The notes under the pieces were generated by a model. It was not told the origin of the DNA. It did no database searches and saw only the letters and a program-made list of their open reading frames with translations. DNA of 64,000 nucleotides from Glandiceps talaboti (lineage: Eukaryota; Hemichordata; Enteropneusta; Spengelidae). Numbering within the stretch: position 1 is the first letter of the stretch; each line of letters begins with the position of its first letter. The DNA lies in contig NC_135558.1 in NCBI RefSeq assembly GCF_964340395.1, positions 15,764,000 to 15,827,999 of the forward strand. Reading direction: 5' to 3'. Of this stretch, positions 7,499 to 58,850 are shown in pieces. Both the position numbers and the translations under genes were made by a program.

Positions 7499-8629
7499 TC
7501 ACTTTCTCTTTCTCAAATTCAGTCGTATTTTACGTCTGGGATGTACAACAGCATGCACCCAGTCAACGACAAAGCTCAGAGTAGAGTTTTTCTTATTAGC
7601 CAGTTCCACAGTTTTGTACTTCAGAATTATCGCTAGCATTATTTTTATTTCTGACCACGCAATATGCTGACCAACACAAACACGACTTCCAGCTCCAAAA
7701 GGAATGAAGGTCTTCTCCCTCCTTTCCAGTGTCTTTTCTTGCTGCTGCTTCTTCTTCAAGAACCTTTCAGGGTCAAGGGTCATAGCATCTTTCCATACAC
7801 TCTCTGAACGTTGTATTCCCCACGTGAAAACCATAATGTTGCTCTGCGAAAGACAAGAAAATAACGTATATGTAGTTAGTAGTGGTAATGCATATGTAAA
7901 TCAGGCAACAAGACCATATATGGCAATGCTCTTCGTTATCATCTATTACAAAGAGATTCCGTCTCAACTGTCTCTTTTCTAAACCATTGCAGATACCGAG
8001 TTCGTGAATTCTGGACGTTTAATGAATAGAATATTATGTAAGGACAACGTGTGGAAACAAAAGTGATGACATATATGCAGATGAACACTGATTTTGCCAG
8101 GATCTCTCTGCAAAAAAAAGTCAACTTCACTTCTCATTTCGAAAGCATGTGCGTTGCAAAACTGAGTACTCAAGGTATCAAAATGTATATTAAAACTACT
8201 CCCACTTATCTATGTAATGTAATGAAACTTACATTTTCCGGTACACTGTACCCTCCCAAGTGTGCCTGGTCTGTGTTCTTTCGTATGATGTACGGTGCAA
8301 TCGGGAAAAGGCGAAGTGTTTCTTTCATAAAACTCTCCAGTACTGGTAGTGGTGCAACAAACTCTGCAAGATGACTGCCATCAAGTTGGCCTGTGTCATC
8401 CATTTTGAATTTCATATCCAGCTCCGCCTGAATTTCTCTCTGTATGTCGTCATTAGTAGCAAGGATGTGAAGCATGATGGGAAGAGATGAAGCAGTCGTT
8501 TCCGTTCCAGCTAATAGAAGAAGTTTTACAGTCTGAAAAAACAAAGGATTGAAATATTAAAATCTAAATGTATTATTTCGAAAATCATTGGGAAAGGGAG
8601 TTGATTTATAAACTGATATCGGTTCTGTG

Positions 8630-8709
<80 letters not shown>

Positions 8710-8742
8710 GTATATATATATATATATGTATATATATGTATG

Positions 8743-8834
<92 letters not shown>

Positions 8835-8996
8835 AAACATTAATGTGTTTGTATTATATTTTTATGATACATGAGGACATATTTTATCACTTTTTTCTTC
8901 AGCTTTTAACTCTCCAGAATAATTTCACACTTAACAGTGCCAGCAACTTCATCATCATCGTCATCATCATCACCATCACGATTTTCATCGTCGTCG

Positions 8997-9048
<52 letters not shown>

Positions 9049-10827
9049 TACCAACATCATTTTCAAACCACCAACCAAGTTCCTCTGAGATAAACTGAAC
9101 CCAACAACCAATCTCTGAAAGATATTTGTCTACACTTACCGCTTTGAGATTGTCTACATCATCCAAGACGCATCTAAGATTAGTTTGGTCATTTTCGAGG
9201 AAATTCTCCAAGTTCCTTGCTTCTTCCATCTTATCAATAATCATCTGTACAGCGTCGTCGATGGTTTCATTAGCAGATACAAATGTTGGACTGTCTTCAT
9301 CCTGACTCTGCATAGCATACACATCATGCAGTACAAAGTTCATAGCGTTGAATAGTTTCACATGATCTCCATGGATACCGTTTAGGTCTAACCCAAAAAC
9401 ACACTTTGCTAACACATCGAGAGAAAATCTTTGCATTTCTTCAGTGATATCAACGGCAGTGTCATTCCTCAACTTTAAGACAACATCACGTGCACTGGCT
9501 GCGATTTCAGCTGATTTGCTCTCAATGACAGATTTCCTTAAAAGCGCCGCGATAGCCCTCCTGGCTGATGGGTTATTTTCATGACTTGAGAGAAAACTAT
9601 CGCTTAATATAGACCGATTTACGTCATCAGAACCCTTGTCGAAGTGTTTGATCACATAGTTAGCCAATTTACTGTTACATACAACTACCCAAGAGCCAAA
9701 CTGAAAGACGCCCTCTCTGTTGAAGTGGTGACTGTAATATTCTAGCTGCTTCAGTTTGTCGTCACCGCATAGCATCCATGCAGTTGACCGTGAGAATACG
9801 TTGGCCATGGGGACTCTCTTTTTGCAGTAACTTCTCTGTACTCCTTCGACCTAAGTAGTCAGTGAAAACAAAAGAAGGTTATCTTTCACATTTTTCAGCG
9901 AGGGCGTTAGCAGGCGCTGAAAATACTTGCGAATCAGTTGCGAATATTTTCTGCATGAACGATCGATCTTGTTGATCATTGATTTCGTCTCCACCAGCAG
10001 TGGCATGCTGTGTATAGTAGTAAGTGCATGACAGTTCCTTTGTCGATTTGTTTTACCCTTCTTTTCACCCATTGAGTATTAACAGAAACTAAAAGTTTCG
10101 ATTGTACTGTTGGAAAATAGTTCGAAACGAAACAGTGTCGTTTTTTTGTATCCTCAGGCTTTTGGGAAGAAATAATGCTGAATGCTTTCTCAAATCAATG
10201 TGAATCCGAACACGTTTTTTGTCCCTATAATTATCCAGCCTTGCTTTGCAACTATAGCACAGGCCAAGGACAACAAGTGAATTTCTCTTCACTTTGATGT
10301 CCCTTATCATAAATGACCAAACGTTGCGAGAGTCTGAAGGTAATTGTCTAATTCACCGGATACCAAAAAAATGTGTACATTTCAGATAAAGAAATTAGTA
10401 TCAGAATCATACATCTGATGAGGACTCCAAAAATCTATTTTAAAAAAATGTCTCTTCTGTTACTCTGTTCCTGACAAAATAACTTAATAAGAAATTAAAG
10501 TGCAATTATTAAAATTCAATATTTGGAAAGAAACTCGTTATTTTATCACTGGCTTTTCCATTTTCCACCTTATAGATACCATATACGGAAACAATTTGCT
10601 GTCAATCGCTCATGTCTCATCAGTGATTGGTTAACACCTTGTACACATCGTAAGCTTACCACGTGCATATCACGCATATCACGAATGACACAAAGAAAAG
10701 AAAATGAAAGTTTGCAAAGCATATACACAATAATTTTCTGCATAGTATATGGTATATATACAAAACTTACGATTGATGACAGAAGTCCCAATATGAAAAT
10801 AATCACAGATCGAAAATAAGGTACCAT
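7499..10827 (-). CDS. Cytochrome P450 monooxygenase, four exons, 470 aa
   Basis: Heme-thiolate monooxygenase, probably ER-anchored, inserting one oxygen atom into an organic substrate with electrons from P450 reductase. Exons (minus): 10827-10771 (19 aa, hydrophobic anchor after ATG in an ACCATGG context), 9850-9140 (237 aa), 8532-8233 (100 aa), 7843-7499 (114 aa plus stop). All introns are GT-AG, phase 0, and the exons sum to the normal family length. Visible motifs: I-helix AGTETT (264-269), K-helix ETLR (327-330), PERF (381-384), heme loop [10 protein letters not shown] (405-414) with ligand Cys412. All key residues are present. It is head to head with the methyltransferase gene across 776 bp, which suggests a shared promoter region. 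I cannot name the CYP family; a role in the nearby pathway is inferred. Confidence 0.92.
8629..8833. repeat. (TA)n microsatellite in P450 intron 2
   Basis: About 200 bp of TA/TG repeats inside the 607-bp second intron (8533-9139). Tyr-Ile open frames on both strands are artefacts. Confidence 0.97.
8950..9051. repeat. (ATC)n microsatellite in P450 intron 2
   Basis: CAT/ATC trinucleotide array directly downstream of the exon 2 donor (minus strand). The open frame runs from exon 2 into this array as poly-Asp, but the GTAAGT donor at 9139-9134 and the family alignment place it in the intron. Confidence 0.95.
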
Positions 10828-10949
10828 GGTGACCAGGATTTCGCGATTTCGCTATGCTTTGGCTCTTCGGTGCAAGATAGAGGCTGGTCTACTGTGGGAA
10901 ATGCAAAATAACAATTTGCAATGAATTATAGGAAACATTCCCTCAAAAT

Positions 10950-10993
<44 letters not shown>

Positions 10994-11033
10994 AATAATA
11001 ATAATAATAATAATCACAACAACAACAACAACA

Positions 11034-11071
<38 letters not shown>

Positions 11072-11603
11072 ACTAACAAATAGAAAGAGAAAGTGTAATC
11101 CAATCTAACATATGTAAATAAAGTCGCCGTGTAGAACTAAGATATTGCACGATTAAATTGGCTCTAAAAGAAATTTGTCACATGTCATGACATTAAAAAA
11201 GAAAGAACAGTCTTACTTGATCTGACCAAGTAATGGATAAGATCTTTGAGACGAAGATTTCTTTAGTACAGAATTTTCCGACAGAACAGAGTCGGAGAAT
11301 ACAGGATGTGAGGGGAAAGTCCCGAATTACAGCCACATTGTATTAGTCATGTGATTTTCAGCGAATTTTATTATCAAATTCCTGGAAAGGCCTTACAAAA
11401 CAAAAGCGTTCGGTCTGCATGTCAGTTTAATATTACAAGATTTAGAATTTCTACGAAATTGTAATAAGTCCTGATTTTCGGCGAATTGTACAAATTGAAA
11501 CGAAAGTATTCTGTATTCATGCCAGTTTACTTGTGAAGTTATGCAAATTTAGGACGCGACTACGTCTGCTCATGTCTGCATGAACGACTGATTCTGAAAC
11601 AAG
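10828..11603. promoter_or_regulatory. Shared 5' region of the divergent P450 and methyltransferase genes
   Basis: The P450 start codon (10827, minus) and the methyltransferase start codon (11604, plus) face away from each other across 776 bp. This space must hold both promoters. I see no clear TATA box. A trinucleotide array sits in the middle. A bidirectional promoter is inference. Confidence 0.45.
10947..11071. repeat. Compound trinucleotide array (CAA)n (TAA)n (CAA)n (CGA)n
   Basis: About 45 bp of CAA, then ATA/TAA, then CAA, then about 35 bp of CGA, within the divergent promoter region. The array may set the spacing between the two promoters. Confidence 0.95.
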
Positions 11604-12821
11604 ATGGCTTCCTTGAAAGTGGTAACGGAGACGGCAGTCGTTTCGTCCTACGAAGGTATTTACAAGGGGATACACGATACTATTATCCGCCAGATGTTCT
11701 CGGAGGCTCGTGGTCACATCACTGGAGGACGTTGGAATGAAGCGAAAGCGTTACTTCAACGGGCATTGCACACCGCATCCATCGGGGTTGAGGACATTAA
11801 CACCATTACACAAATATTATCCGAAATTGAACTTTACCAAAACAGCGTGATTACGGATGGCATCGGGGTTATTCCCCAAGCTAGTTACGATTGGGGCCAG
11901 GGCTACAACGGTGAAGCGAGTTGCCTCGAGGAAAACGTCCACGCGTTTCCGCAAAGTATTTTCTTTATTTATTTGAACACCGATCTATCAACAGACGGTC
12001 CTTCACAACGATATATCTTTGTTGGTAGGAAAGTGCTGTCAAAACTGTGGATCGAAGGTGAAATAAACGAAATTCACTGCAGTCAAATTACCGCATGCAT
12101 GATACTTGGGTCATACATCGACCAACGTGTAAGCGAATCGAGCGTGAAGGTGTTCTATCATCCATTCGAGCCGAAAGAGAAACTTGCAATATTCAGAAGA
12201 ATAACCGAAGAGGCGAACAACTTGGTTGAATTAGTTTTCCCCTTTCCGCTCCTAAGAAGAGAAAACAAGTCAGAGCTCTGTACAGGACCGAAGGGCTGGG
12301 AGGTTGATGATGCATTCGTGGCTCAACTAGGTCATGGTGAAACACACCTACGGTCATACTGTACCGAGATCGTCGGTGAAATCTGTTCTGAAATTGCTTC
12401 TCCGCTGTTCTATGACCCCGGTTGTTCGACTGGACAGTTTCTGCAAAGCCTCAAGGACAGCTTTCCAAACTGCTTCACAATAGGGCAAGATCTCAGTGCA
12501 CAGATGGTGAAGCTTGCTAAAGGTCGCGTTGACGAAGTTCACCTAGGCAACGCCTTACAACCGAAGGTTTTACCGGCTAGTATTGATGTCGTTTTTATAA
12601 GGTTCCTGAACTCTGAAGTAGTGAAGACAAGGGAAGCCGAAAGTATCCTACCAAAGCTTGTAGAATGTGTAAAGCCGGGCGGTTTTGTCATTATAATGGG
12701 ACATACACCGGTATTGATAAACGCTTCTGTATTGAGACGCATGGGACTAAACATCAAAAGGTGTGTTGGGCACTCCTCGGATTCATCATCACTTTTTCAG
12801 TTCTACGTTTGTGAAAAATAA
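11604..12821 (+). CDS. SAM-dependent methyltransferase (class I fold), intronless, 405 aa
   Basis: Transfers a methyl group from S-adenosylmethionine to an unknown acceptor. The C-terminal half shows the class I (Rossmann) pattern: motif I FYDPGCSTGQFL with Asp271 and Gly273/Gly277, the acidic ribose-binding loop IGQDLS at 293-297 (Asp296), strand 4 DVVFIRFLNSE and motif KPGG at 357-360. The first 250 residues are a helical/mixed N-terminal region I do not recognise. No signal peptide or membrane segment. It is a single open exon, while the P450 and oxygenase genes beside it have introns. I recall proteins with a similar D-P-x-C-S-T-G motif I and RFLNSE strand from bacteria, so transfer is possible but unproven. 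An AATAAA lies at 13179. Confidence 0.8.
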   Translation: MASLKVVTETAVVSSYEGIYKGIHDTIIRQMFSEARGHITGGRWNEAKALLQRALHTASIGVEDINTITQILSEIELYQNSVITDGIGVIPQASYDWGQGYNGEASCLEENVHAFPQSIFFIYLNTDLSTDGPSQRYIFVGRKVLSKLWIEGEINEIHCSQITACMILGSYIDQRVSESSVKVFYHPFEPKEKLAIFRRITEEANNLVELVFPFPLLRRENKSELCTGPKGWEVDDAFVAQLGHGETHLRSYCTEIVGEICSEIASPLFYDPGCSTGQFLQSLKDSFPNCFTIGQDLSAQMVKLAKGRVDEVHLGNALQPKVLPASIDVVFIRFLNSEVVKTREAESILPKLVECVKPGGFVIIMGHTPVLINASVLRRMGLNIKRCVGHSSDSSSLFQFYVCEK

Positions 12822-14152
12822 CATTCAGAAACTGCTAACTCTCTATATCATTTTTTTGCATTGACAAAATCATCCTTTCATGTGTGTTCGAGGTTAATCG
12901 CAAGGGTTCGGAGACACGGATCTTTATGGCATGTTTATCAGTATTTACTTTTAAATTAATTTCGAGGTCAGATATTGCAATAACTTAACATTGTAATCAT
13001 ACAAATCACGAATTATATCAATCCTAGAACAACTTTTCAACACTTTACCTACCACGCTAATGTCTCTACTAAAAGGGAATTTATATTAAAGGAAGTTTTC
13101 TCATAATTATCAATTGCTTTTCTGTATGTATTTCTTCGCCCTATTCGACATCATTGAATTATAGTAAAATATTCAAAGAATAAATTTTCTCATGAAGTGT
13201 CTTGATCAAACAAAGCCCGGGAAAAATGTGAGGCCCAATTTCCCTCAAATATCTGGCAACATGGTTGGTAAACTCTTTACTCGTGCACATGGACAGTTCG
13301 TGACACCACGTCACGTCAGCTAGTAGCTACTAGATGTGATTGGGGTTATTTTCTGTTGTTTCTTACTTTTTTGTCAACTTACTTTTATCAGCTTCTGGAT
13401 CACCATAGAGCAGTCAATTTTTTTATAGTCCTCGTATGAAGTAACACCTGAAAGGTATTTCAGCTAATTACAAAGGTTTGGACTATTTTTAATATATATC
13501 GAAAAGATTTCAGCCAGTGGTACGCTTACTCAACTGCAGACCTCAAACAGTGTCAAACTTTCAAAGTCATTAAATTTGAGGGACGAAAATACTGCATGGT
13601 CATGGAAATTTAAGATTTTTATTTATTTTGTTTTGATGTCACCTTTGAGTTCATGTGTGTTCAAAGAGTAATTACAGTTTGCTATTCATATGTGAAGACA
13701 GGGTTGATTTAGCCAACAGACAAAGCGGGGCAAGGTCAGCTCACTCACCAAACTGGCTAGATTTGACAACGTAAGTGTTGTGGGTGACACCTCTGTCACG
13801 GTGGTGGGACGTGAATGGGAGGCGTGCATGTCAAATATCCGAATCCTGAATTCTTTGAGTTGTAGATAGAGGAGAAATGAGTAATCTAACAAAATATGGA
13901 GAAGGCTTTTCTGCATTTAGTGTATTTGCATTGAGTTGCATATCTTGTATACCCCAGACAAACAACACATTGTTGAATTATGCGGTAAAGCCTATACTTG
14001 TCTGTGGGTGATAAAGTAACATGAATCTCGTGTCCCAAAAGAAGTGTCGACACACATGCAATACCCTGTACAAAATGTAACTAACAAAATTGGGGAATAA
14101 TACATACTAAAGAAGATATAGATATATATTATTTTATTATAGTGACACAGTT
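12822..14152. other. 3' region of the methyltransferase gene and spacer
   Basis: AT-rich, with short open frames only. The AATAAA at 13179-13184 is about 360 nt past the stop codon and could end the methyltransferase transcript. Nothing else recognised. Confidence 0.4.
13179..13184 (+). terminator. Candidate polyadenylation signal of the methyltransferase gene
   Basis: AATAAA hexamer downstream of the stop at 12821. No transcript evidence is available here. Confidence 0.35.
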
Positions 14153-14757
14153 TCACATACATCTATAAGTACATGTGTATACATGACAGCAAAATTCACT
14201 GTCGAATATCAAGAATCTCTCGTATAAAGTCCTGCAACTGATGACCGCACCTGGCATTAAAATCGCCACACAGAATACGGTAATCAAAGCATTCATTTCA
14301 TACACGTGCAACTGCTGAGTTGGGTAATCGAAAAAGTCATTTCCAACATCTCCTCTTGGAGAACTTTGAGGTTGTAAATAACAACAACATACTGTAACAG
14401 CGTTATTAGAATATTTATCGGTTAGTTTTAAACCAAAGTATATCTTGTTGTCCAAAACAGAGATTTTGTACCTATTGAGGAGACGGCTATGAACAAGTAT
14501 GCAGACGCCCCCGGAACCATGCAAGGCCCGTCTAGAAATAATAATCTTTCTGTTTTGACCAAAGAAAAGATAATTACTGAGTTCGAGAACTTCATTTTCG
14601 CGCAAAAATGTTTCACAAACACAAACGATATCTAAATTCAACTTCTTTATAACGAGTTCTTTGTAGTCTGGAGAGGAGTAAGTCTCCGTCCATCCATTCA
14701 CATTCCAGCAGCCAATGTTTATACTCGACTGGTTTGCAATTGTCTGCTAATCTGACT
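14153..14757 (-). mobile_element. LINE fragment: N-terminal part of an AP-type endonuclease
   Basis: The minus-strand reading begins near 14730 with INIGCWNVNGWTET, then a Cys-Glu-Thr segment and HGSGGVCILVHSRL. This is the opening of the APE-like endonuclease of non-LTR retrotransposons (the N-x-N-G-W/L start, the catalytic Glu in the ET motif and the GGV strand). No reverse transcriptase follows, so the copy is truncated. Different in sequence from the LINE at 51.5 kb. Confidence 0.6.
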
Positions 14758-16825
14758 CGTTTCTATCATCCTGTATTATTCGACCGTTTTACCACTTCAC
14801 CTTATGGTCACCACCAATGACAAAAAGAAGAAGGGATTACATTTATGTGACGGACAGTGGGCTCTACGGTGTATAAAATAGTTGCCGCCGGGGTGATTAA
14901 TCAAGTACGGACATGTTTCGATCAACCTCTTACAAAGACGGGTCCGAACTTTTCTTTTTGTTTGTGGAATTAATCATCTATCGCCTAGGTCACAACCTTC
15001 TGATTCATTTTCCCTTTTAATACGCCACTTTTCGGTAAAATCTGGTGTCTCATTACATTCAAATGAGTTAGTCACAGGGTGCTATGAAAAACATCCACAG
15101 TTGCCTCGCAAGCAATCGAGCGACCAAGATGAAATACCATGTACAAATATGTATACAATGCAAGAACCTAGAACAGGACTGCATAGTATTCATTTTCCCT
15201 TTGTTAATAGGAATGCTTTTTAAACCAATACAAGCTCGTTGCCCCAAGGAGTTGTCGAGTGCTGGCATGTTCAGTTCAACCCCCTACTAAGCTTTTCTGT
15301 TAAAAACTACTACGCTTTCTACGAAACTGGTGACTCAGTACCATGTGAGAGATTTCGCGTTTCCATGTAATTGGCATTACCAACATTTCAAATCACGCAG
15401 TGCACGCGTGATCAGAACTCTACAAAGTCATGCATTTCTCATGTTTCCTCAGGTACTCGACGCCTAAAAAATGTACCACCTCAGAAGACATCAGCGTGTC
15501 CAACTGAAAATGTAGTACATGTACGTTGTATTCTATCTGTTATTGGACCTCTGTAACAGCAAGAGGATTTTCTCACGATCACGATGATTTTCTAGTCCAA
15601 CATATCTTCCATTGTTATGTCATTTTGTAATGGGCTCTAATCTAAAGTAAACGTACACCATGTTTTCCTGTCTATTCTAAGTTCATAATAGGAGTCCTGG
15701 TTATCGGCAATCTAAAATATCAGGACGAAATTATGCATACGAAAGTGTCTGCCATTGACTGAGCAAAGTGATAAGTGCTAAACTTATGGGGCCGAAGGGT
15801 CAATCTCCTTCACACCAGTAATCAACACACATGCATGTACAAGCGTACGTATATGCCACATACGCTTATGGGTCTTTTCGATTTTGTAGCTGTATAGCAA
15901 GAAATACCCCGGAGTATAAGACCTACCGTCTAGGTATCTTCGACGTCTAACCAGACAGAATGGATTTTGACCGATTTTCCTTCCTGTCTGTTTGATAATC
16001 TACCCGAATAACCTGACATAAAGACGAACTAACCACCCCACCCACACTCATGATGTCTTTTCACAATCTGTAGACAGAAAGAATTTGGGTCGCATTTTCT
16101 TTCTTTCTCTTTTGATACCCAAACAACCAGTAAGAACGAGAACCTGGGAATTCTGCTGGTAGTGAATTTATCCTTGGCTGAAACAGTATTTTCGATGTAT
16201 CATTTATATTTCTGGTCGAGCTTTGTTTCGGTAAAGAGTACAATCAAACTCCGATATCTTTGCTTTAAAAGCGTGAATCCGGCCGCTTGGATACCAAACC
16301 TTTATTTGGAAATAAAAACAACAACTAAAGTTCCCAGTGGTAAAATTCTGAAAATTAACAAGAACATGATCCCATCGATGAGTTTGCATTTACGAAGCGA
16401 TGCGACCTTGAACTCGATGAACTTACAAACGGTGATTAAGCACTTCATTAAATATACTTGCATGAACCCAGATGCACTGAACGAGTTATTTATCTGTGGA
16501 TATATACACAATGCTATCACTAGTATGCACAGGTACGCACCTGTAATTAAGATGGGGGCAATGGCAGCCTACCACCCATCTCTATATCAATGTGCAGCGA
16601 CGGCCGTGTGTGTCACCACATAGTGTGTGATATCCAGGACAGAAAGGGGCTTGCGCAAAGAGACTGCGATGCTAAGAAGCTAAAAGGTACTTCATAACCT
16701 TAAGTTTTATTATTATTATTATTATTATAACTTATTTACTTTCTATTCTTCAGCCCATGATATATCAGTAAATACAGGAGAGGAAATTAAGTTGTGCAGG
16801 AACAAAAGTCAGAACTGATACGACT
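14758..16825. other. Intergenic stretch between convergent genes
   Basis: About 2 kb with short open frames on both strands. Those near 16.05-16.6 kb are the longest, but none shows a family motif or splice partner that I can support. May contain decayed repeats. Confidence 0.35.
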
Positions 16826-17035
16826 GGTGCATGTGTCTGTCTCTTGCAGAGGATGATTCATATACATTATAATACAATTGTTGCATGTGTCTGTCTTTTG
16901 CAGGAGGGTGACGTGATTTATATACAGTTATACAATTGTTAATTGTGTCCGTCTCAGAGTGTGATTTATATACATTGTAATACAACTTGAAGTGTTGTGT
17001 GTGTCTATCTCTTTCAGAGGGTGGTTTACTAAACA
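16826..17035. repeat. Minisatellite, about 50-58-bp unit, four diverged copies
   Basis: Units start near 16828, 16882, 16940 and 16991, with a core of GCATGTGTCTGTCTCTTGCA followed by a GATTTATATACATT stretch and ACAATTGTT. Copies differ by small insertions. The minus-strand open frame here is a translation of the repeat. Confidence 0.75.
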
Positions 17036-17938
17036 AAGACTTCATGAAAGTCAGCACGCGTCCCTGACACAATTTTGACTGATACAGACACATGCAATAG
17101 TTGTATCTGTTCTGACGTTTGTTACTGTACAGTGGACTTTCTTTTGCTGTATTTGAACTTTCTTAAGTTGTTTGAATGTAGTGGGTAAATTGAGATGGTA
17201 TTTATTAGCCTATATCATTTGGATTTCTCTGTTAACTTCACTTCTCTCGATTCAACGTTAACGGTAATTGTTGAATGCGGTGCGATGGTACATTCGACCA
17301 GTGACAATAACTTGGAGGCTTTTAAGGCGGTCTCAAGTGACGTTAACGAGTATTCATGCCAATGACGTTTGCATGAGGTTCTCTATAAAGTTCCCATCGA
17401 CATGAATGTGTTCTTTACAAAGAGTTCCACCAACCTTGAGACGGCAGACAATGTACGGTTTTCGCGTGTAGTCGTTTGATATTATATCAGTCTATGCTAT
17501 CGACCAAAACCAAACATGATAAAATATTGCATAACCAGACTTGAAATGTCTGCAAAAAAGATGCCCAATAAGGTAACAGCAGTAATTTAAACCTACCAGC
17601 AAAAAAACATGGACCCCATAAAACGTGTTTAAACAAGTGATGAGATCGCACTGATGCTAAATATGGAAAGCTTACATATCCTCACATGATCATATGTGTC
17701 ACGTGACCCACGCATCCTCACATGACATGTCGATATTATGTATTCGCAGCTCAGGTTAACTTTACTTTTACAAGCTACCGATGAAAACGTCAATAACTTT
17801 GTAGTCATAGATCAGAAAATTAAGTTCAGATAAAAGAAATAGGTTGACTTGTAACTATTTTTAAAACTAGTTGTAAACCTATTTCACCCAGATAAAAGTT
17901 AGTATATGATACTTGAGTTAAGAAATACTACTTTTTTT
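17036..17938. other. Spacer downstream of the 2OG oxygenase gene
   Basis: No gene recognised. Includes the 3' untranslated region of the minus-strand oxygenase. I see no clear minus-strand AATAAA close by. Confidence 0.4.
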
Positions 17939-20900
17939 TCAAGACCACAGCACGATTTCACCACTTTCAAATCTGCCCATGAAAGAACCGAACGTGTAGC
18001 GAGTAGGGCTTTCAGCTGCCGGCAAAACTTTATGGAAATTACGGCTGTTGAACAAAACTAGGTCGCCTTGGATTGGTTGCAGAGTCCATGTACGGACTCC
18101 GTCTATGATGTTTGGGTCATAAGGTCGAGACAAGTCAAAAGAACGAAGCTCCTCCAAGCCAGCGTCCCATTGTCTGTCGTATACTATTGTTTCTCCTCCT
18201 CCACTCGGTTGTGTCAGGTACAGATTCCACGACAACTGAAAGCACAAAGAAAAAGCTTGAACGTAAGCACATGATCACTCTGAATAAATAAGTTTAAATG
18301 TTTACATGGATGGTGAAAATATGCAGCTAACAATGATATATGTCACCTAGTACATTTTTGTCGTAAATGGTATGTTTTGTAAAATTCTAAATACAATTTT
18401 GTTAAACCTGCAGTTAAGACTTCTGAAAAATGGTTTTCTGACAGACCTCTAGAAAGTTGATAACATACATTGTTTCACTGCTAAGATATCACTATTGCGA
18501 GAACATGGGATTGAAACCCAGGCCTTTAAAGGCCCGGTTCACGATAGGATTGGAATGTGCGTGTGATGTGTGTGAAGAACAGTTGTCTTGGCAGATCTAT
18601 AAAATGTTGGCCCAGAATAAAAGAAATTCCCATTTAACCCATGTGCTCCACTGATAAGATAAGACCACTGCAAGAACCTAGGATTGAACTCCCGAAAGCT
18701 CAATATGGAGTCATGGTGGGTGAATGGTTAGCTTGACCGGCCTAGAATCTACAGGTTGCAGGTTCGAGCTGGTGACAATGATATATGTCACTATTGCGAG
18801 ACATATATCATTGTTCGAGCAGGTCGCTGCCTGCTGTTTGTTTCTGAGTGGCTTAAGTCCTTTGGGCAAGATTTGAACTACAACTGTGACTCAGTCAACA
18901 CAGCTGTATAATTGGGGACCTAGTAGAATGTAGGTTGCAATGTGAAGGCTTTAATCCTATGCGCCTAAATGGCTGCAATGGATTGTATGCTCCCTAGGCA
19001 GTTGAGGAAGACTAAAGGGCCGTTGTGCCGTTCTGATCCGAGACAGGGGTAATAATTGTTAAGCGCTTTGAACACGGCGTGGGAACGCGCTATAAGAACC
19101 CAACATTATAATTATCAATACTACAATAGGAAATTGCAAGAAAGACAAATATGTAGTTGATATGATAAAGTACGAAAAGATAAACTAAGTTTTGGTTCAT
19201 TTTATGTTTAGATTTTATGACGTTTCGGCCGAATTAACCGTGTCATACCTGACTTCTGACGTCAGCAATCATCCAACCCTGTCCAGCATGGAATGGCGCG
19301 AAATCAAAGTGAGTTTCAATTCCATTGTTCGCCCATCTCACCAATCCAACAAAGTATTTTCGGCCGTCTGGTTCAGCTGCCAAGCTGACTTCGTTACCAT
19401 GGTTACACTTACGTAGCATGCTCAGGTACCGTTCAAAGACATCAAAAGCACTGATAGAGAATGATTGTTGGATGATCTTATTGACAGCCCTGGCTTCCAC
19501 AAAGTATTTCTCTTTATCTACATATTTTAAAATAAAATAAAGAAATTAATATCCATTATAAACTTTCACATCCATCCGGGGTTTTTTGACCAGTCTTTTC
19601 AATGCAATCATTGTTGCTCAGTGTTGAATACAAACGGCTGTGATCAGTAAACTTTCAGGAATTTTATTAGTGGTGAATAATCAAAACTGGTTTAGAAAGT
19701 GTGTACGGTCGCCACCAAGGGGGATTGTTGTTTTGCGTCGACGTTGAACACTACTGTTGCAGCAAAGTGGAAATATGATTTTACGACGGTGGGGTGCAAT
19801 GCAAAATTGACAATTTGACGATGACGATAACCGACAACTTAAACATAAATTTCATTCCAGTATATGGAATTTTTGGGTTATCATTTCCATTATACGTTTG
19901 TCCTTCTTACCTTCCACTGCGAATTCACTCTGTGACATTCCAATCCGTCGAACTACGTTTGTATCTTTCTCAGTATCTTCATTTGACAGACGTTGGCTAG
20001 GTACAATACTGATTTCACCACTTTTGACACTCTCCGTTACAACTTTAAACCTATAGTAGAAATAAAATCACAATCAAAATACAATTTGAGATTTCATTTT
20101 AAAAAAAGTATCTTTAAATTGGGCTTAGTTCCTTTACTTCCAAGGAAAAGGGTAAAAATTGTAATTTCATTGATTGGACAAACATTGCAGGGCAACTAGC
20201 CTTTAAATCAATTTTTAAAATGAAAAAAATATCCGTTTTTGATACCCCCAGATAGGTATGTGGAGTGAAATTGCTAGTGTCATATTAACAGCCACAATTC
20301 GTCCTGTATAACAAAACCATGTCATAATCACCTGACTATAGATCGACGAAAGCTTATCAACACTGCTAATACAAGTATATCTCATCGTCTGGCTCAACAA
20401 AAATCTTAATAACATGATATGTTGCTAAATTTGGAGGTTTTTTTATGTCTTCGCAGTTTGTTACATTGTAAATGGTTTGGCAAGGAACTGCTAACATAAT
20501 GGTATTTTTTACGAATAAAACGTTGCAATTTTAGTGAAAGATGCTATTGTTCGTATTCTGTCGAGGCAAACAAAGAAATGTAGCAATGTTAGTAAGATTT
20601 TTATCGAACCAGAAAATGATCATGAATTGTAGCAATGTTGGTAAAAAAAATTATTGAGTCAGACGATAAAATGTAGCAATGTTGATAATACTTTATCAAG
20701 TCAGACGACACCCTTTTTCAGGTTGCATGATTTTATGCATACATATAAAGGAAGAAAACCATGACAGAATAAACCACACTTACTTGCTACATTTCAGCAG
20801 GCCATCAACGAGACGTTCACATTCTTCTTTGCTGGCAAATGATTTGATGCGAATGGCGGGAAAATCATTATTAAGTAAACCTTGCAGAGTACATTCCGAC

Positions 20901-20941
20901 AATTCCTTTTCCTCCACAATATCCCACTTTTTGGCAGCCAT
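17939..20941 (-). CDS. Fe(II)/2-oxoglutarate-dependent oxygenase, WelO5-like, four exons, 287 aa
   Basis: Non-heme iron oxygenase that couples 2-oxoglutarate decarboxylation to oxidation of a substrate. Exons (minus): 20941-20784 (52 aa), 20050-19911, 19517-19249, 18235-17939. Introns are GT-AG and the phases (2, 1, 0) join exactly, which proves the model. Iron ligands: His169-x-Asp171 in ETHFDFAP and distal His257 in NSRNFHKV; Arg268 likely binds 2-oxoglutarate. Length, ligand spacing, the GGGETIVYD and GDLVLFNSR segments and the Trp-Ser C-terminus recall the cyanobacterial halogenase WelO5, which has Gly in place of the Asp. Here the Asp is kept, so hydroxylation, desaturation or similar chemistry is expected, not halogenation. 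I chose the ATG at 20941 (ATGG); another in-frame ATG lies 48 nt upstream. Substrate unknown. Confidence 0.88.
18706..19116 (+). mobile_element. tRNA-derived SINE in intron 3 of the 2OG oxygenase gene
   Basis: A-box-like TGGGTGAATGGTTAGC at 18717 and B-box GGTTCGAGC at 18761 mark a pol III promoter. The 3' end has TTAAGCGCTTTGAACACG and GCGCTATAAGAACCCAACAT followed by an AT-rich tail, a pattern shared by many marine invertebrate SINEs with LINE-derived tails. Just after the B-box there is a 52-bp insertion with a 14-nt perfect hairpin and a repeat of TTCGAGC. Confidence 0.7.
20575..20712. repeat. Short tandem repeat, about 55-60-bp unit, three copies, in oxygenase intron 1
   Basis: TGTAGCAATGTT followed by an RGTAA/ATAAT stretch and a TCRAGTCAGACGA-like segment recurs near 20580, 20627 and 20671. 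Diverged, non-coding. Confidence 0.7.
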
Positions 20942-20989
20942 GAATGAAACAGTTCGTTTTAGTTTAGTTGTGGTGTACAGTCTATGCAT

Positions 20990-23900
20990 AAATAAGAATA
21001 AAAATTGACAACATTACATAAAAAAGTATAAAATAGTCAGCAGCTAGAATACACAATTTCAAGTGTATATGCATTAAATTCCTATATTATACCAACAAAA
21101 GTTCAGTTTCTTCACAGCCAACTTAGTCAAGGTTTGAATGTATCACATCTACAATTTTTTCAACTTTTAACTCTGTAATTTTTACCATACGAGAAGAATC
21201 CTTCATTTAAAAAAAAATATTTAATTCAAAAAGTTCGATCAACATGTCAGATGATTGCAAAACTCCACGATGCAGTGTTGTGTTTGAATTCATATAGAGA
21301 ACTGTAGTGAATTCCTCTTCCATAAAAAAAAAAACAAGACAGTCGTATGCACAGCTTTTGTACAATATAAAATGTATAAAAGTGTGTATGCTTCGATGCT
21401 CTGTGCCTCTGTTATTGTTAGTCTGGAGTTGAAATTAGTCTATCTTTATGCCAAAAACATTTTCATGTCCCATGGTTGAAACGCCAAGGTAACCTAGATT
21501 CCACTGTAATTATCCACTTGCGACATTCAATTATCAAATCTTTATGATTAGCCAGTATTGTAGTAGAAGGTAAACTGCATACGAGACGATGTACTAGTAT
21601 GTTGTGTAACTGGAACCATAGACTTTATTTATCAAATGGCCGGGGCTAGCAGTTGTCTTATATGCCCACAGCTCGACGGTCAAAAGCCAAGTCCTGAATC
21701 TGCAACGCTATGGTCGTTACAATAATTAAATCACAATAAGTCACGAATATGAGAAGAGCTTTTAAGATAACAATAGGTCATACATAATTATGAGCATCAT
21801 TGTTGTGAATCAAAGGACACTAAACTCTAACTTGAATGACATATACGATATTAGTGTGCCTATTGTCTTGACATCCATGTGAGCCATATTCATATCTCTA
21901 AACAAGTGTTTGGCGACATGTATAAACAGTGCCATGATTGAACCCAAACACAGTAATTACACAATTGTCACATTCCTGTCTCTATCATTCAAAATGGCGT
22001 CGTGCCGAATATAAGCCTTATTTTGTGACTGTTCTGTCCACCATTCGCCACAAATTGGTTTCCACTTACCGTAAGCATCTAGGTGGCAGTATCAAAATGA
22101 AAGCTTTAGTCATTAAGGCTGTCATATAATTAATTAAGACAATTTTGTTGAAAGTATTGTCTAAAACTTCCCACTGCGGCAGAGGACGTGAACTAGATTG
22201 AACTGGTACAACTTAAATAATACAATGAAACTAGATCGTTCCTACCTTAGCGAGAGCCTCTCGTCCTTGCGATTCCACTACGTGGACAAAAAACATCGAA
22301 TCGAAAGAAGTTTATTTAATGATCCTCTTTCTTTCTGAGAATTAATAAGGTTACAGAAACGGGGCTTTCCCTATGTAATTAGATTCTGAATAACAGCTAT
22401 GCGTGTATCCAGCCTGCACTTACACTAAAGTAATTGTTCAACTCCTTGTTCTCACGAAACACCCATGAACGTGTTACAGTATGATATGACCTAAATTGAA
22501 AGAGAAAGAGCCACATTTTCCGTCGTGCATAGGTCAGCTGTGTAGTTATTCAGACGTTTTCTAAACATTGAGAACCACCCCGATTAGGTGTCTACCATAT
22601 ACAAGTTTCAAATTTACTCAGGTATGTAACACACTGTATCTTCATTCAACCCTTCTTATAATTATGAACTTTTTTTCTGATAATTCTTGTTTATTCGAAT
22701 GAATTTAAATTTGGCTACATAATCTACATGATAATTGTATTCCATTCCTTTTGGAATATTCACCTCTCTGGTCAAACATTCTCCGTTCTTACACAAGTAG
22801 ATTTCATTTCAAATTTTAAAAAAATTCAAATCCCCATACCAAATCCCAAAGTAAAATATTAGATAACTTTATGTGTTTCATTATTGTATTCGGGGTGAAC
22901 TTATTACTTTAGTTTAGTATAGTTTCACATTATGGCGTCTCATTTTGTATAGTGTGTGTCTGTGTGTATGATATGGGGTTTTTTTAAATGGCAGAAAAAG
23001 GAAAGTCGTTAGTTTTAATGAACATTAAGAGGCTGCTACACCTTTCGTATGCGAGCATGCATTCATTCATTACGATCCATTTGAAGTGAATAGCCGGTGC
23101 GTTACTTGCACAACATGGCGCCATCAGTGTTATTTGTAACCGTGACGACAATATTTGCAAAACAAACCATAATTTTTTTTACGGAGAACTCGCTGAAATA
23201 AACGAATTTTTCTAGATCAATATCAAAATAGTGCACAGTGATATGTACTGTAGCTGTCACCATTTAAACACTGCACGGGTATTATTGCAGTAAACATTTG
23301 CAGGGAATGTGAAATTATAGCGATCGCTGGCTCGACGAGGGGAGACTGTTCTCACCATATTCCAGTGTGATGTCACCTTTTATATTTTTAACAATTTTTT
23401 ATATATTCATATTTTTTTGCATGTGTATTTCTATGTGAATGTCTGACTTGTTGTTCGTCTTTGTATCGCATACACTTTGCTTAGTTGTGTTGTCCTCGAA
23501 ATATTTGATGCGGAGAGTGTCGGTTAATATGTCTTAATGTTGATGTTCTTTCACCTAGCATATGGCATATAGGAGTCCAGACCTTTGGAGAACCACCATA
23601 TTTATAATAAGGCGTCAGTTTTTTAGCCGATGTGTGTGAAGGTGTATTAATCAAATAGCAATAAATTGATGAAAATGTTGTTGAAGCCTGAATATTTGAC
23701 CCTTTTGAAATTATGAACAAAATATTTTCATAATATCAAAATATAAAATACGCTAACGTCTACGGTAACACTTGTGTTTACTAGTTGATCCATTCCCTAA
23801 GCAGCCATTTACATTTAGTGCGTTTTCATTTTCATTTTCTCTAGGAACGTGGGTCAGCTTGTGGTCAGGATTCATTTGAACCAAAACGGTCACAAAGTTC

Positions 23901-24870
23901 TTGGAATTCAGGTATTTATTAGAATCTTCTGTTGGGTATTTAACACTTTCTTTTGACCACAGGTACATGCATATACATCAGTTACCTGATAATGACAGTA
24001 TCACATAGCTTGTCTGTGCAGAACTTGTCGACGTACGAATGAAACGGCGACGTAAACACATTTTTGACAAGTTTTTAAATCGATGCACTTTTCCAAACGC
24101 AAGATGTGATACCGCAACCAGGTGAAATCAGTCCTGTCTAAATTATACATTATCAATTCTTTCATTTTATTGTTGCCCACTCTCAGGAACAAATTTAAAA
24201 CAATTCACTTCACTAAATCACAGAGAAGTAAGACGAGTAAAAAATTTGTTATTTGTCTTTGACTAAATTTACACCCGTGAAAAGAAGAGAAAAGTAGTAA
24301 AAATATAAAGTATATTTAATCTTATTTTCTTGTTTATGGACTCTACATTTTAATAGGAGTTCTCTTATAGGACTTTATCTTTGCAAATCACAAATAGCTT
24401 TTCTGACTCAGACACAGGTCTTAACTTTCACTTTCGTTAAGTTTCTATCTTTAAATATATAGTGACTCATTGTCACAGCTTGCTAATCTAGTCAAGAGCT
24501 ACTGGCGGAAAAACTGCCTTACCGTATGTATTAGAGTAACTGTAGTGTGTATCATACGACATTGACTTACACTGTGTATTACAACGAAAATATCAATAAA
24601 ATCTTGTAAGTCACGTCCGCTTTCAGCTGGATGATGTCTACTCGGAACTCCCTAACGTTGGTGGCGCAATTTGACTCATCACGCGCACGACGACCTCTGT
24701 TGCTATGGCACTCACTCAAACTTCATCAGACTGCAATCAATCGATATCATACGCAGTACACATAAATCTACCACTACAGTAAAAAAAAGGTACTGGGTTA
24801 AGTTGATATTTTGTAATTTATGTACATATATTACAATCTTAGATTTATCTTGTGGTGTTGCCCATCATTC
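20990..24870. other. Spacer between the 2OG oxygenase and A-T-R genes
   Basis: Nearly 3.9 kb of AT-rich DNA with the divergent promoters of the oxygenase (minus) and NRPS-like gene (plus) at its ends. Open frames are under 80 codons and look random. I see no further enzyme exons, RNA genes or clear mobile elements. Confidence 0.4.
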
Positions 24871-24877
24871 AGTGTAC

Positions 24878-24888
24878 CTATATAAATC
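24878..24888 (+). promoter_or_regulatory. Candidate TATA box of the A-T-R gene
   Basis: CTATATAAATC lies about 120 nt before the start codon. A start of transcription about 30 nt downstream would give a 5' leader of about 95 nt without an intron. Confidence 0.4.
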
Positions 24889-25004
24889 TGACATATTTTC
24901 CCCCATTTCTTTCCATTTTTAGACCAGCACATGTTATCGACTAAACTGCTTCTCCAGTTACCTATCACTCAACTTCCGTCCTAGCCGTCTATCAGGCACT
25001 TAAA

Positions 25005-28000
25005 ATGGAGTACAAGTCAACTCTCTACAGTCTCTTCACAGATAAATGTAAAGAGTGTGGTGATTCGACCTGCCTCATATCTACTGAAAATGTAATGACC
25101 TATGCAGAGGTAAAAGATGCAGTGAACAAACTTGCAGCTGATATAACTCAAGTATTGAACATGCACTTTTACAACATGGATATAGCTGGTTCTCTAGTTG
25201 GTCTTCATATGGAAAGCGGTTTTGCCTATGTGATTAGTGTTCTGGCAGTGCTAAAACTTGGTCTGGGATTTTTACCCCTTCCTACAAACTACCCTACAGA
25301 GCGCACAGGCTTCATTCTTAATGATGCAAAACCGTTAATGGTGATCTGCTCTCAACATGTGGTGTTTGAAGACTACAATATGGCTGACCAATGCAATCCC
25401 TCATTACATGTATATGTACAGAAACTTTTTGTAAATCTTCGAGCATCCAAATGCGAAAGGGATACTCTTGCTTTGGCGTGCAAAGGCATGTGTTATGTTA
25501 TGTATACATCGGGTTCAACAGGCTTACCAAAGGGCGTAAGAATCATGCAAGGAGGCGTAGTAAACATGATAACCGCACAGATCGAGGCATGGCATCTTGA
25601 TCAAAGTCACACAATTTGTCAGTTTGCATCCATAGGTTTTGACGCAACCATTTCCGAGATTTTCACGGCTCTCCTGTCAGGGGGAAGACTTGTACTTCTT
25701 CAAGAAGAGGAAAGGCTTGGTTTGGAATTCGTGAAGTCTATGAACGCATTAGAAGTAACGACTATAACATTACCACCAACTCTCTTGTCGACTTACAACC
25801 CCGAAGACTTCCCTCTTTTACAAAATATAGTTTGTGCTGGCGAGGCATGTCCACGGCAAGTTGCAGGGATATGGAGTAGACCCAACTGTCGGTTTTACAA
25901 TGCATATGGTCCAACAGAAGCTACGGTTTGTACCACCATTTATCACCACCAAAACACTGGTCATGGTGAGGGCTTATTTATTCCAATTGGTCAACCAATA
26001 AGAAACGTTGAGTGTCTTATACTTGATGTAAAACACAAACCAGTTTTGACCAATGAAGTTGGGGAAATATTCATTGGTGGACCTGGTGTTGCGAACGGCT
26101 ATATAGGGCATGCAGCTAGCCGCACAGAGGAGCATTTTGTAAAACTGGAAAAGAGTGATGGGATGCAATATACTTACTATAAAACTGGTGATATAGCCAC
26201 TAAGGACTTAGATGGCATGTTGTACTTCCTTGGGAGGGGTGACCGACAAGTTCAGGTTCATGGACAAAGGGTTGAGCTAGACGAGATCGAGGCAGAATTG
26301 TTGAGAGTTGATGGAGTAGAAATGGCGGTTGTGGTTCTTCATAAATGTCTGGATGGTAATTCCTCGCTACGAGCATTTGTATCACCTTGTGGTTTAGATT
26401 TCAATGAAATCAAGACGTCACTGAAGAACAAACTGCCTAAATGTATGATTCCAAGTACAATTAATTCTATTGAAGCGACACAGTTTAGAAGAAGCTTTAG
26501 TGACAAGATCGACAGAAACTCCATGGCTGAGTTGTCATGTTACAGATGCAGCAAAGATGAAACCCATTTTATAGACAAGTCTGACCCTGGAAGAAGTGAA
26601 TGTGAAGTACATATGGAACAGACACTGGTAGGAATCTGGCGCAAAGTACTAGGACTACCTCCCCACAGAAAAATCACCAGGAAGTCTTCATTCCAAGATT
26701 TAGGTGGAAACTCCCTGAGATACGTGTTTTTACAAAGAGAAATAAAGGAAAATCTACAGATCGAAATTCCATTCAACCATCTCTTTAAACACACAACACT
26801 CGAAGGTATGGAAAGCCTGATACATCAACTACGTAGAAATGGTATCTCTGCCACAAAGGGAAAATTAGAGACGACAGATATGGATGAAACTTTATCTCAT
26901 CTGATTGAGGATGCTAGATTTCGAGAGGATGAGGAGACGCGACTGAAAGAAAACGTATCTCTTTTACCACAAACCAGTACACTAGACTCTGTTCTCTTGA
27001 CAGGGGCATCTGGGTTCCTTGGCTCCTTCTTACTGATGGAAATCCTGGAAACAAGCAAGGCTGTTGTCTTCTGTCTGGTCCGAACATTGTCTGAATCAAC
27101 AGGGCTGACCAAAATCAAAGAGGCATTATTGAAATATGGGTTATGGAAGGATGCCTACAGGCAGAGGATTCGGGTCATAGTTGGTGATCTCAGCAAACCA
27201 TGGTTGGGTATACAAGATAGTCAGCTCTATGACATTCTTTGCAGAGATATCAACCTTGTCATCGCAAATGGAGCCTATGTAAACTACAATCAGTCTTACA
27301 AAGAGCACCGAAATGTGAACGTAAACAGTGTCAAAGAAATCATTAAATTGGCCTCAACATATCGTGTGAAGACCATGGTGTATATCTCCTCCCTCAGTGT
27401 ATTCCTGTTTCCATCTAAAGGTCCATTGACAGCCACAGAGGAGATGTCCCTCGGATCAGCTGATACCATAATTGGAGGTTATGGCAAGAGTAAATGGGTT
27501 GCCGATTCTGTCATGCAACAAGCACTGAAGTATCTGCCTGGGGCAATTATCCGTCCAGGAAGAGTAACTGGAAGAAGCACAGATGGTGCAGGTCCAAACA
27601 ACGATCTATTTGTTGCTACTCTGATGGGTATGATAAATCTTGGTGCATATCCAGATATAAGCTTCCCATACGACCTGGTACCAGTCGACTATGTTTCCAA
27701 AGCCTCATTGGGCATTGCGATGTATGTTCACACCAACCGTCAAGATAGTCCAAATGTATACCACATCTTCAACCACCAAACTATAGACTTTCAAGACCTA
27801 TTTCGTGGTTATGGCCTCAAGGCTCTTCATCTGGATGACTGGAGGAAGCTTCTTAAGGGAAGCTGTGATCGCAATAACCCATTGTTGCCACTGACCCCTT
27901 TCTACCTCTCAGAGTTCTGGAATATGGTTGATAGATGGCCTTGTTTTGATACTACACATACCAACAGTGTTGTTACTCCTGAAGTTAGGAAACTGTTGCT

Positions 28001-28058
28001 GCCAGCTTATGTACTTCTACCAATCTACCTGAAATATTTGCAGATCAAGGAAGAATAA
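25005..28058 (+). CDS. NRPS-like A-T-R enzyme: adenylation, carrier and thioester reductase domains, 1017 aa
   Basis: Activates a carboxylic acid with ATP, loads it on a phosphopantetheine arm and releases it by NADPH reduction as an aldehyde or alcohol. Adenylation motifs: YTSGSTGLPKG (167-177), FDATISE (212-218), NAYGPTE (299-305), YKTGD, GRGDRQVQVHGQRVELDEIE, and SDKIDR with Lys501. Carrier: LGGNSLR with Ser570 as attachment site. Reductase: TGASGFLG (666-673) and YGKSK (Tyr826, Lys830). All key residues are present and there is no condensation or thioesterase domain. Pocket residues at the PheA positions are D213, A214, S217, T255, V276, A278, A300, V308, C309, K501, a Tyr/Phe-type code. 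The gene has no introns, unlike its P450 and oxygenase neighbours. The carrier would need the host phosphopantetheinyl transferase. Tyr or Phe as substrate is inference. Confidence 0.93.
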   Translation: MEYKSTLYSLFTDKCKECGDSTCLISTENVMTYAEVKDAVNKLAADITQVLNMHFYNMDIAGSLVGLHMESGFAYVISVLAVLKLGLGFLPLPTNYPTERTGFILNDAKPLMVICSQHVVFEDYNMADQCNPSLHVYVQKLFVNLRASKCERDTLALACKGMCYVMYTSGSTGLPKGVRIMQGGVVNMITAQIEAWHLDQSHTICQFASIGFDATISEIFTALLSGGRLVLLQEEERLGLEFVKSMNALEVTTITLPPTLLSTYNPEDFPLLQNIVCAGEACPRQVAGIWSRPNCRFYNAYGPTEATVCTTIYHHQNTGHGEGLFIPIGQPIRNVECLILDVKHKPVLTNEVGEIFIGGPGVANGYIGHAASRTEEHFVKLEKSDGMQYTYYKTGDIATKDLDGMLYFLGRGDRQVQVHGQRVELDEIEAELLRVDGVEMAVVVLHKCLDGNSSLRAFVSPCGLDFNEIKTSLKNKLPKCMIPSTINSIEATQFRRSFSDKIDRNSMAELSCYRCSKDETHFIDKSDPGRSECEVHMEQTLVGIWRKVLGLPPHRKITRKSSFQDLGGNSLRYVFLQREIKENLQIEIPFNHLFKHTTLEGMESLIHQLRRNGISATKGKLETTDMDETLSHLIEDARFREDEETRLKENVSLLPQTSTLDSVLLTGASGFLGSFLLMEILETSKAVVFCLVRTLSESTGLTKIKEALLKYGLWKDAYRQRIRVIVGDLSKPWLGIQDSQLYDILCRDINLVIANGAYVNYNQSYKEHRNVNVNSVKEIIKLASTYRVKTMVYISSLSVFLFPSKGPLTATEEMSLGSADTIIGGYGKSKWVADSVMQQALKYLPGAIIRPGRVTGRSTDGAGPNNDLFVATLMGMINLGAYPDISFPYDLVPVDYVSKASLGIAMYVHTNRQDSPNVYHIFNHQTIDFQDLFRGYGLKALHLDDWRKLLKGSCDRNNPLLPLTPFYLSEFWNMVDRWPCFDTTHTNSVVTPEVRKLLLPAYVLLPIYLKYLQIKEE

Positions 28059-41824: not shown

Positions 41825-46121
<4,297 letters not shown>

Positions 46122-46225: not shown

Positions 46226-46430
<205 letters not shown>

Positions 46431-58780: not shown

Positions 58781-58850
58781 GTAAGCTCTGAGACTCCCAG
58801 TTAAAAATGTTAACATGACTCCTGTTTCATGTTAGTCTTATGCGTGCACT

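Follow-up and report, generated by a model that had tools for sequence, protein, structure and literature searches.

The window analyzed here, a 64,000-nucleotide stretch of the genome of the acorn worm Glandiceps talaboti (Hemichordata; C11:15764000-15827999; assembly of 590 Mb in 47 contigs), contains, at positions 7499-28058, four intact, open enzyme genes: a cytochrome P450, a Rossmann-fold S-adenosylmethionine (SAM) enzyme, a 2-oxoglutarate (2OG) oxygenase of the WelO5 family, and an enzyme resembling nonribosomal peptide synthetases (NRPS) with adenylation (A), carrier (T), and thioester reductase (R) domains. With slightly better than even confidence, we judge the best overall explanation to be a host-encoded cluster for a small molecule, with a product of the O-(3-amino-3-carboxypropyl)-tyrosinal or -tyrosinol type. 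The A-T-R enzyme and the SAM enzyme, which resembles Nat of the nocardicin pathway, very probably act in one pathway, because their linkage recurs in bivalves and in bacteria and is accompanied by a shared A-domain code. The cluster is encoded by the host animal, because two of its genes (P450 and 2OG oxygenase) are spliced and the contig that holds it is chromosome-scale (25,083,287 bp); on the same grounds, we rejected bacterial contamination. Linkage in the host chromosome is observed for all four genes, and support for a shared pathway by recurrence is observed for two of the four. A first-pass annotation had placed four intact enzyme genes with their catalytic motifs here and had read them as an animal biosynthetic cluster in which an A-T-R core acts on an aromatic amino acid and methylation follows. 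The genes and motifs were borne out (all frames are open, the gene models have Pfam matches, and the A-T-R, 2OG, and P450 motifs were located), and the interpretation is correct in outline: the two-gene linkage recurs in bivalve-type assemblies and bacteria and the A-domain code is of aromatic type, but the P450 and the 2OG oxygenase are tied to the pair only by co-location, and the methylation step is not supported. What is gained is the aminocarboxypropyl link and the recurrence of the pair.

The A-T-R enzyme is encoded by a single exon on the plus strand (25005-28058; 1017 residues) and comprises, in order and with intact motifs, an A domain (25038-26543, approximate ends; AMP-binding, 2.2e-58), a T domain (26619-26819; PP-binding, 2.2e-10; DLGGNSL at residue 565), and an R domain (26997-27704; NAD_binding_4, 2.4e-56; GASGFLG at residue 667 and YGKSK at residue 826), with no condensation (C) domain. 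It is the only full-length match in the Glandiceps genome. Nine of the ten specificity positions of the A domain, for which we assumed the usual locations and which we set by motif anchors, were read by alignment and give the pocket code DASTVAAVC; for the tenth, we took the lysine in the motif DKIDR at residue 500. Codes of this kind we take to denote tyrosine or phenylalanine, and the substrate of the A-T-R enzyme is probably tyrosine, as judged from the code. Known A-T-R enzymes from fungi and bacteria, namely AsaC, PvfC, and the A-T-R module of AusA, have the same domain order and the same reductive release but use other amino acids or a dipeptide, and the words "nocardicin" and "aminocarboxypropyl" are absent from the text of the article that treats them (PMC10512218). 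Elsewhere in the genome, at C11:17.66-17.75 Mb and C19:18.68-18.77 Mb, lie local Glandiceps gene families (L003-L009) with long A-domain frames, mostly of 570-608 residues, that by eye are Ebony- or AASDH-like.

The SAM enzyme is likewise encoded by a single plus-strand exon (11604-12821; 405 residues). In a PDB sequence search, isonocardicin synthase (8zhu) matches at 8.9e-39 and the next match is at 0.051. With the AlphaFold2 (AF2) model (pLDDT 87), Foldseek matches the nocardicin 3-amino-3-carboxypropyl transferase (8zhv) at 1.0e-27 (TMt 0.88), the match covering 309 alignment columns of the 289-residue Nat chain, and the next different fold, the best ordinary methyltransferase, follows at 2.4e-8 (TMt 0.58). 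The Glandiceps enzyme thus matches the nocardicin enzyme in sequence and in fold, and the match extends to the region that precedes the Rossmann domain. An alignment of 19 family members has 36 invariant columns, six of which form the block GHTPVL, and the nocardicin enzyme has GHTPVL too. Six animal-type rows of this alignment (Glandiceps, four mollusc-type, and one rotifer) carry an N-terminal stretch of about 80 residues that is missing from the remaining thirteen, which are of bacterial type; residues 26-81 of the Glandiceps enzyme form a three-helix N-terminal extension in the AF2 model, found only in the animal-type rows among the 19. The animal-type proteins thus differ from isonocardicin synthase in this helical stretch. 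They also differ in placement: 8zhu, together with a bacterial row (L044), falls outside the 61-row clade that holds Glandiceps (support 96), and for this reason we file the enzyme as Nat-like rather than as Nat. One match to it exists in the Glandiceps genome. A review (PMC10491745) counts the nocardicin enzyme for isonocardicin C among those for which SAM serves as the source of an aminocarboxypropyl group. From the sequence and fold matches, we consider it quite probable that the Glandiceps enzyme is a 3-amino-3-carboxypropyl transferase and does not methylate.

Two other readings of the SAM enzyme have to be weighed against this one. The reading as a plain O- or N-methyltransferase, which would make the product a methylated tyrosinal or tyrosinol derivative, agrees with the Pfam names of the protein (Methyltransf_25/11/12) and with the usual SAM motifs in its Rossmann core, but the PDB search offers nothing other than isonocardicin synthase nearer than 0.051 and the E value of the Nat fold match is 19 orders of magnitude better than that of ordinary methyltransferases; we consider this reading distinctly unlikely and treat the Pfam name as a name and not as the likely activity. 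The reading as an enzyme that cyclizes SAM to azetidine-2-carboxylic acid, as AzeJ and VioH do, and so provides a building block for the A-T-R enzyme, draws on the fact that AzeJ and VioH are class I methyltransferase-like enzymes of NRPS pathways (PMC11794875). We consider it highly improbable: Nat tops both the sequence and the fold searches, the A-domain code is of aromatic type, and the AzeJ entry 8RYD appears neither among the 21 PDB sequence matches (E<=1) nor among the best 50 of 1868 fold matches, although the presence of 8RYD in the searched sets was unchecked.

The pairing of an A-T-R enzyme with a Nat-like enzyme recurs in bivalves. Using equal contig size as a proxy for one contig, and with the animal or molluscan status of part of the rows assigned by architecture or tree position, we count four bivalve-type pairs as linked in all. 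In Sinanodonta, an A-T-R protein (P0030) and a Nat-like protein (P0125) have locus tags ACJMK2_036132 and ACJMK2_036135, on contigs of equal size; in Mizuhopecten, the A-T-R and Nat-like proteins are on contigs that are both 312,184 bp; and in two further bivalve-type assemblies, they are on contigs both 133,081 bp and both 582,559 bp, respectively. The A-T-R partners belong to mollusc proteins named "linear gramicidin synthase subunit D-like" (P0005-P0050), which are 34-43% identical to the Glandiceps A-T-R enzyme, have mostly the same pocket code and, in some bivalves, are linked to a Nat-like gene. Across the 48 rows that we assign to animals, the code is DASTVAAVC in 25 and DASTIAAVC in 16 (together 41 of 48). 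The mollusc proteins differ from that of Glandiceps in that 36 of the 46 list a formyltransferase (F) domain, which in P0005 and P0030 is N-terminal to A; a search for a domain of this F-A-T-R type upstream of 25005, in the window and in the genome found none, the empty genome answer carrying no weight by itself. Because the remaining 10 of 46 list no formyltransferase, including the linked P0022 and P0036, an F-less A-T-R enzyme may not be peculiar to Glandiceps. In P0005 and P0030, some 290-300 residues without a good Pfam match separate the formyltransferase and A domains.

The pairing recurs also in bacteria. A scan of genome contigs with the Nat alignment and two sequence patterns yielded 68 bacterial Nat-like loci, with flanks of at most 10 kb and often shorter, and the Glandiceps A domain finds matches within 18 of them. 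In 12 of the 68 (L025, L028, L030, L031, L032, L034, L038, L039, L042, L045, L048, and L052; L038 is cut by a contig end), the Nat-like gene either is fused to a reading frame with A and R domains or has such a frame immediately 5' of it on the same strand, and a T domain exceeds the reporting threshold in eight of these (L028, L030, L032, L034, L038, L042, L045, and L052). In L030, A, T, R, and Nat-like domains occupy one 1204-residue open reading frame (ORF; L030:7226-10837), on whose flanks lie genes for TauD, ATP-grasp, MFS, CmlA-type, and formyltransferase proteins. Downstream of Nat, both L030 and L052 carry an MFS gene, a diiron hydroxylase of the CmlA type, and a sequence resembling formyltransferases, the last of which deserves attention because 36 of the 46 animal-type rows list a formyltransferase. 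In comparison with Glandiceps, the 12 operons have the same two enzyme types side by side, but their A domains are 26-31% identical, their R domains are 22-27% identical in the five loci where aligned, and their partners differ (CmlA, formyltransferase, MFS, ATP-grasp, and aldo-keto reductase).

The bacterial A domains share the pocket of the animal ones. The nearest upstream A domain could be scored in 17 of the bacterial Nat-like loci: it has a code of the form DA[AS][TI]V[AV]AVC in 13, DSASVMAVC in one (L030), and an unrelated code in three. Within the 12 operons, the code is the same as or near that of Glandiceps in 11, L030 being more distant, and in L052 the code is identical at 30.7% sequence identity. 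In a control set, for which 71 bacterial rows were selected as similar to the Glandiceps query, DA[AS][TI]V[AV]AVC occurs once, the looser form DA[AS][TI][VI][AV]A[VI]C in five rows, and the aromatic-like form DA.[TI][VI].A[VI]C in 11 rows. In two further loci, L046 and L081, codes of the same type occur in A-domain pieces whose frames are broken, and L085 has a distant A-domain fragment only, on the opposite strand. Some Nat-like genes have other surroundings. In L022 (Bacilli) and L018 (Peregrinibacteria), the Nat-like gene follows a radical-SAM gene and a gene for an EF-G-like GTPase, a setting in which we see the family put to another use; among NCBIfam models, the L022 GTPase best matches tetracycline ribosomal protection, below cut-off, and in L022 the Nat-like gene is followed by an alanine racemase and an LD-carboxypeptidase. 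L035 has the ORF layout of L022 and L018, as seen from layout alone. In L070, a metagenome-assembled genome of Amoebophilaceae, a Nat-like sequence extends over two frames near genes for an aromatic amino acid lyase, a MatE transporter, and an asparagine synthase.

Trees place the Glandiceps genes with those of molluscs. The A-domain tree, which holds 13 of 15 chosen animal rows out of the 48 (P0006 and P0030 were dropped for short alignment), has Glandiceps as sister to 13 mollusc-type rows (supports 100 and 97), and 13 of the 16 bacterial Nat-linked A domains form a clade of their own (97). In the Nat trees, Glandiceps and two mollusc-type clades meet in a three-way fork left as a polytomy (92 in one tree; 96 in the larger tree, which holds 65 of the 68 bacterial rows, with L070, L081, and L085 dropped for length, plus 31 others), with rotifer-type rows and bacterial groups around them and, in the larger tree, the nocardicin enzyme outside. 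The trees suggest that the animal A-T-R/Nat-like pair probably has one animal history, and they support kinship of animal and bacterial A-T-R enzymes no further than the family level; the fork that bears on descent of the animal A-T-R enzyme from a bacterial Nat-linked one has a support of 58. A recent transfer from a mollusc is not favored, Glandiceps lying outside the 13 mollusc-type rows (97) and outside both mollusc-type Nat clades. More tentatively, we consider it possible, though less likely than not, that the pair is an ancient animal locus that predates the hemichordate/mollusc split and was kept linked or relinked amid many losses, that it would be the first known animal small-molecule pathway with SAM as aminocarboxypropyl donor, and that pairing and pocket were perhaps assembled at least twice, in animals and in bacteria. 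We know of no earlier animal pathway in which SAM donates an aminocarboxypropyl group to a small molecule.

Several observations weigh against our best overall explanation of the locus. The nocardicin enzyme lies outside the clade of animal and A-T-R-linked enzymes (in a midpoint-rooted tree with long branches flagged), so that its reaction is transferred across that split. The code DASTVAAVC was not found in the literature searched for it, its tyrosine meaning being our assumption, and the best NCBIfam matches of the A-T-R enzyme, myxochelin MxcG (2.5e-129) and then the last A-T-R of AusA (1.3e-105), are both far below cut-offs. Linkage is not universal. Of 18 Nat-like matches that we count as animal and that lie on contigs of 10 kb or longer, five share a contig size with an A-T-R protein among the matches listed, and one of the five, in Tegillarca (56-Mb contig), was not counted as linked, the two genes being about 1200 locus tags apart; the other 13 have no A-T-R partner among the best 120 of 4408 A-T-R matches. 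In bacteria, 50 of the 68 loci have no A-domain match in reach and 51 of the 68 are without a scorable A domain (flanks of at most 10 kb), the A domains of L044, L060, and L075 have the unrelated codes, and the Nat-like relative of Bacilli sits with radical-SAM, TetM-like GTPase, and alanine racemase genes, showing that the family is not always found with an A-T-R enzyme. The fork that joins the animal and the bacterial Nat-linked A-T-R enzymes has a support of 58. Lastly, WelO5-like and P450 proteins have no match in the 68 bacterial Nat-like loci at 1e-4.

The two oxidase genes are both on the minus strand and both have four exons. The gene model of the 2OG oxygenase comprises exon 1 (20941-20784, with the start codon), exon 2 (20050-19911, containing a poorly predicted insert), exon 3 (19517-19249, with His169-x-Asp171), and exon 4 (18235-17939, with the distal His257, Arg268, and the stop), and its 287-residue product (P0241) is 100% identical to isoform X2 of NCBI LOC144440878 of Glandiceps talaboti. 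The protein belongs to the WelO5 fold family by its family profile (PF22814, 5.7e-22) and its iron and 2OG ligands, WelO5 structures are its best fold match (9.4e-17), and His169, Asp171, His257, and Arg268 are invariant in 15 aligned rows. At the iron site of WelO5-type halogenases, HxG replaces the HxD/E motif, whereas the Glandiceps enzyme has HxD, and an entry "WelO5 G166D" is among its fold matches. The finding of HxD in all 15 rows leads us to reject a halogenase; because HxD stands where the halogenase has HxG, hydroxylation is the expected activity. The gene is a single locus in the genome, and among 1148 scored candidates it has 14 further matches at E<=0.001, none of them a named animal.

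The P450 gene model comprises exon 1 (10827-10771, with the start codon and a membrane-anchor-like stretch of 19 residues), exon 2 (9850-9140), exon 3 (8532-8233, with the I-helix motif AGTETT and ExxR), and exon 4 (7843-7499, with the heme motif and the stop at 7499), joined at GT-AG junctions and encoding 470 residues. Exon 1 is an addition of the present analysis; it lies inside the interval 7499-28058 but is absent from the list of ORFs. The protein is a P450 by its Pfam match (PF00067, 3e-53), heme Cys motif, ExxR, and I-helix motif, and its PDB matches are scattered across many P450 families. The stretch 8630-9050 holds a long TA tract, inside intron 2; a run of trinucleotides that follows exon 2 prolongs the plain ORF into a poly-Asp tail.

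Combining these elements, we propose the following pathway. The A-T-R enzyme would adenylate an aromatic amino acid, most likely L-tyrosine (Tyr + ATP -> Tyr-AMP), transfer it to the carrier as the thioester Tyr-S-T, and release it reductively through the R domain, with NADPH, as tyrosinal or tyrosinol. The Nat-like enzyme would transfer the 3-amino-3-carboxypropyl group of SAM to the phenol oxygen, leaving methylthioadenosine; its acceptor may be the carrier-bound residue, the released product, or the free amino acid. A tyrosine-type substrate fits a Nat-type enzyme, because Nat would need its phenol. The 2OG oxygenase would then hydroxylate the product, and the P450 would probably oxidize it further. 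The domain logic is observed; the chemical steps, their order, the acceptor, the product, and the membership of the oxidases we infer. Doubt is greatest as to which acceptor the Nat-like enzyme uses and whether the oxidases belong.

On the last of these points, we regard it as reasonably likely that the 2OG gene belongs to the pathway of the cluster and give the P450 an even chance. That the A-T-R and Nat-like enzymes are a real unit beside which the two oxidases are chance neighbors with other roles is possible, though we think it the weaker case. The failure to match either oxidase in the 68 bacterial loci and the lack of a named animal among the 14 other 2OG matches speak for chance, as does the general circumstance that animal P450s are numerous; on the other side, the four genes fit into 21 kb, a codon-bias scan finds no further strong coding signal in the gaps between them, and the 2OG gene is a single locus with few relatives. 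That the bacterial operons L030 and L052 each carry a hydroxylase of another family (CmlA-type), and L030 a further one (TauD-type), would by analogy make an oxygenase partner plausible, without proving it. A further alternative would alter the product but not the pathway logic: the A-T-R enzyme may condense two aromatic residues, much as AsaC and PvfC condense aliphatic ones, to a pyrazine or pyrazinone that the Nat-like enzyme would then decorate. The A-T-R module of AusA, which we take to accept the aromatic residue, is the second-best NCBIfam match of the Glandiceps enzyme, below cut-off. AusA (A-T-C-A-T-R) makes the aureusimines, phevalin and tyrvalin, and pyrazinones are products of A-T-R enzymes that lack a C domain (PMC10512218). 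Nothing in the window bears on this alternative, and we hold it to be unlikely.

The first-pass annotation had called clusters of this composition hardly known in animals, which is a fair statement for this make-up, though animal NRPS genes and animal clusters have been published (PMC10531068 and PMC12833800). The oro cluster of sponges (PMC12833800) and the beta-lactam genes of springtails and a nematode (PMC10531068) are host-encoded and partly or fully clustered, as here, but have enzymes other than those of the Glandiceps cluster. An NRPS clade of molluscs plus echinoderms, with a scattered animal distribution, has been described by Suring et al. (PMC10531068), who could not be certain that the short scaffolds in question were free of contamination. 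In the text of these articles, "formyl" and "isonocardicin" are absent from PMC10531068 and "isonocardicin" is absent from PMC12833800. Literature searched by enzyme and code names, with subscription papers mostly outside its reach, gave no record of the A-T-R/Nat-like pairing, and a search by enzyme and code names only gave no product for the bacterial operon family.

Animal NRPS-like genes have been listed before but seldom tied to chemistry. Here, an enzyme for an uncommon reaction is tied to an NRPS-like gene by linkage in an acorn worm, in bivalves, and in bacteria, and by a shared substrate pocket; linkage and pocket together lead to a concrete predicted class of product that should be simple to assay and turn an isolated guess into a pathway open to test. 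If the proposal is correct, animals gain a new use of SAM, and the pair provides a route to related clusters in molluscs and perhaps echinoderms and points to a bacterial operon family.

The codon-bias scan, trained on the four cluster genes and applied to the window plus 40 kb on each side, returned the four genes, a long interspersed nuclear element (LINE) at 51.6 kb, a stretch at 2907-3326, small fragments, and simple repeats. The claim that the interval holds no other convincing host gene is likely on this basis but not proven: the scan missed P450 exon 1 and 2OG exon 1, so genes with small exons could hide from it. The stretch at 2907-3326 (140 codons) is part of a 166-codon open frame on the plus strand (2907-3407), has coding-like codon use, scores like the LINE, and has no Pfam match. 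The LINE-type ORF at 51561-54338 is long and has endonuclease and reverse transcriptase domains, and the outer flank has a 575-residue ORF for a reverse transcriptase. Positions 30400-63100 hold nested repeats, inverted and direct, at 76-95% identity; for instance, 46287-47846 is repeated in inverted orientation at 58272-56854, and 39031-41354 recurs directly, in two pieces, at 60336-63015. One signal-peptide-like stretch is present twice, in opposite orientations, at 45978-46109 (minus strand) and 58672-58788 (plus strand), near both arms of the inverted repeat.

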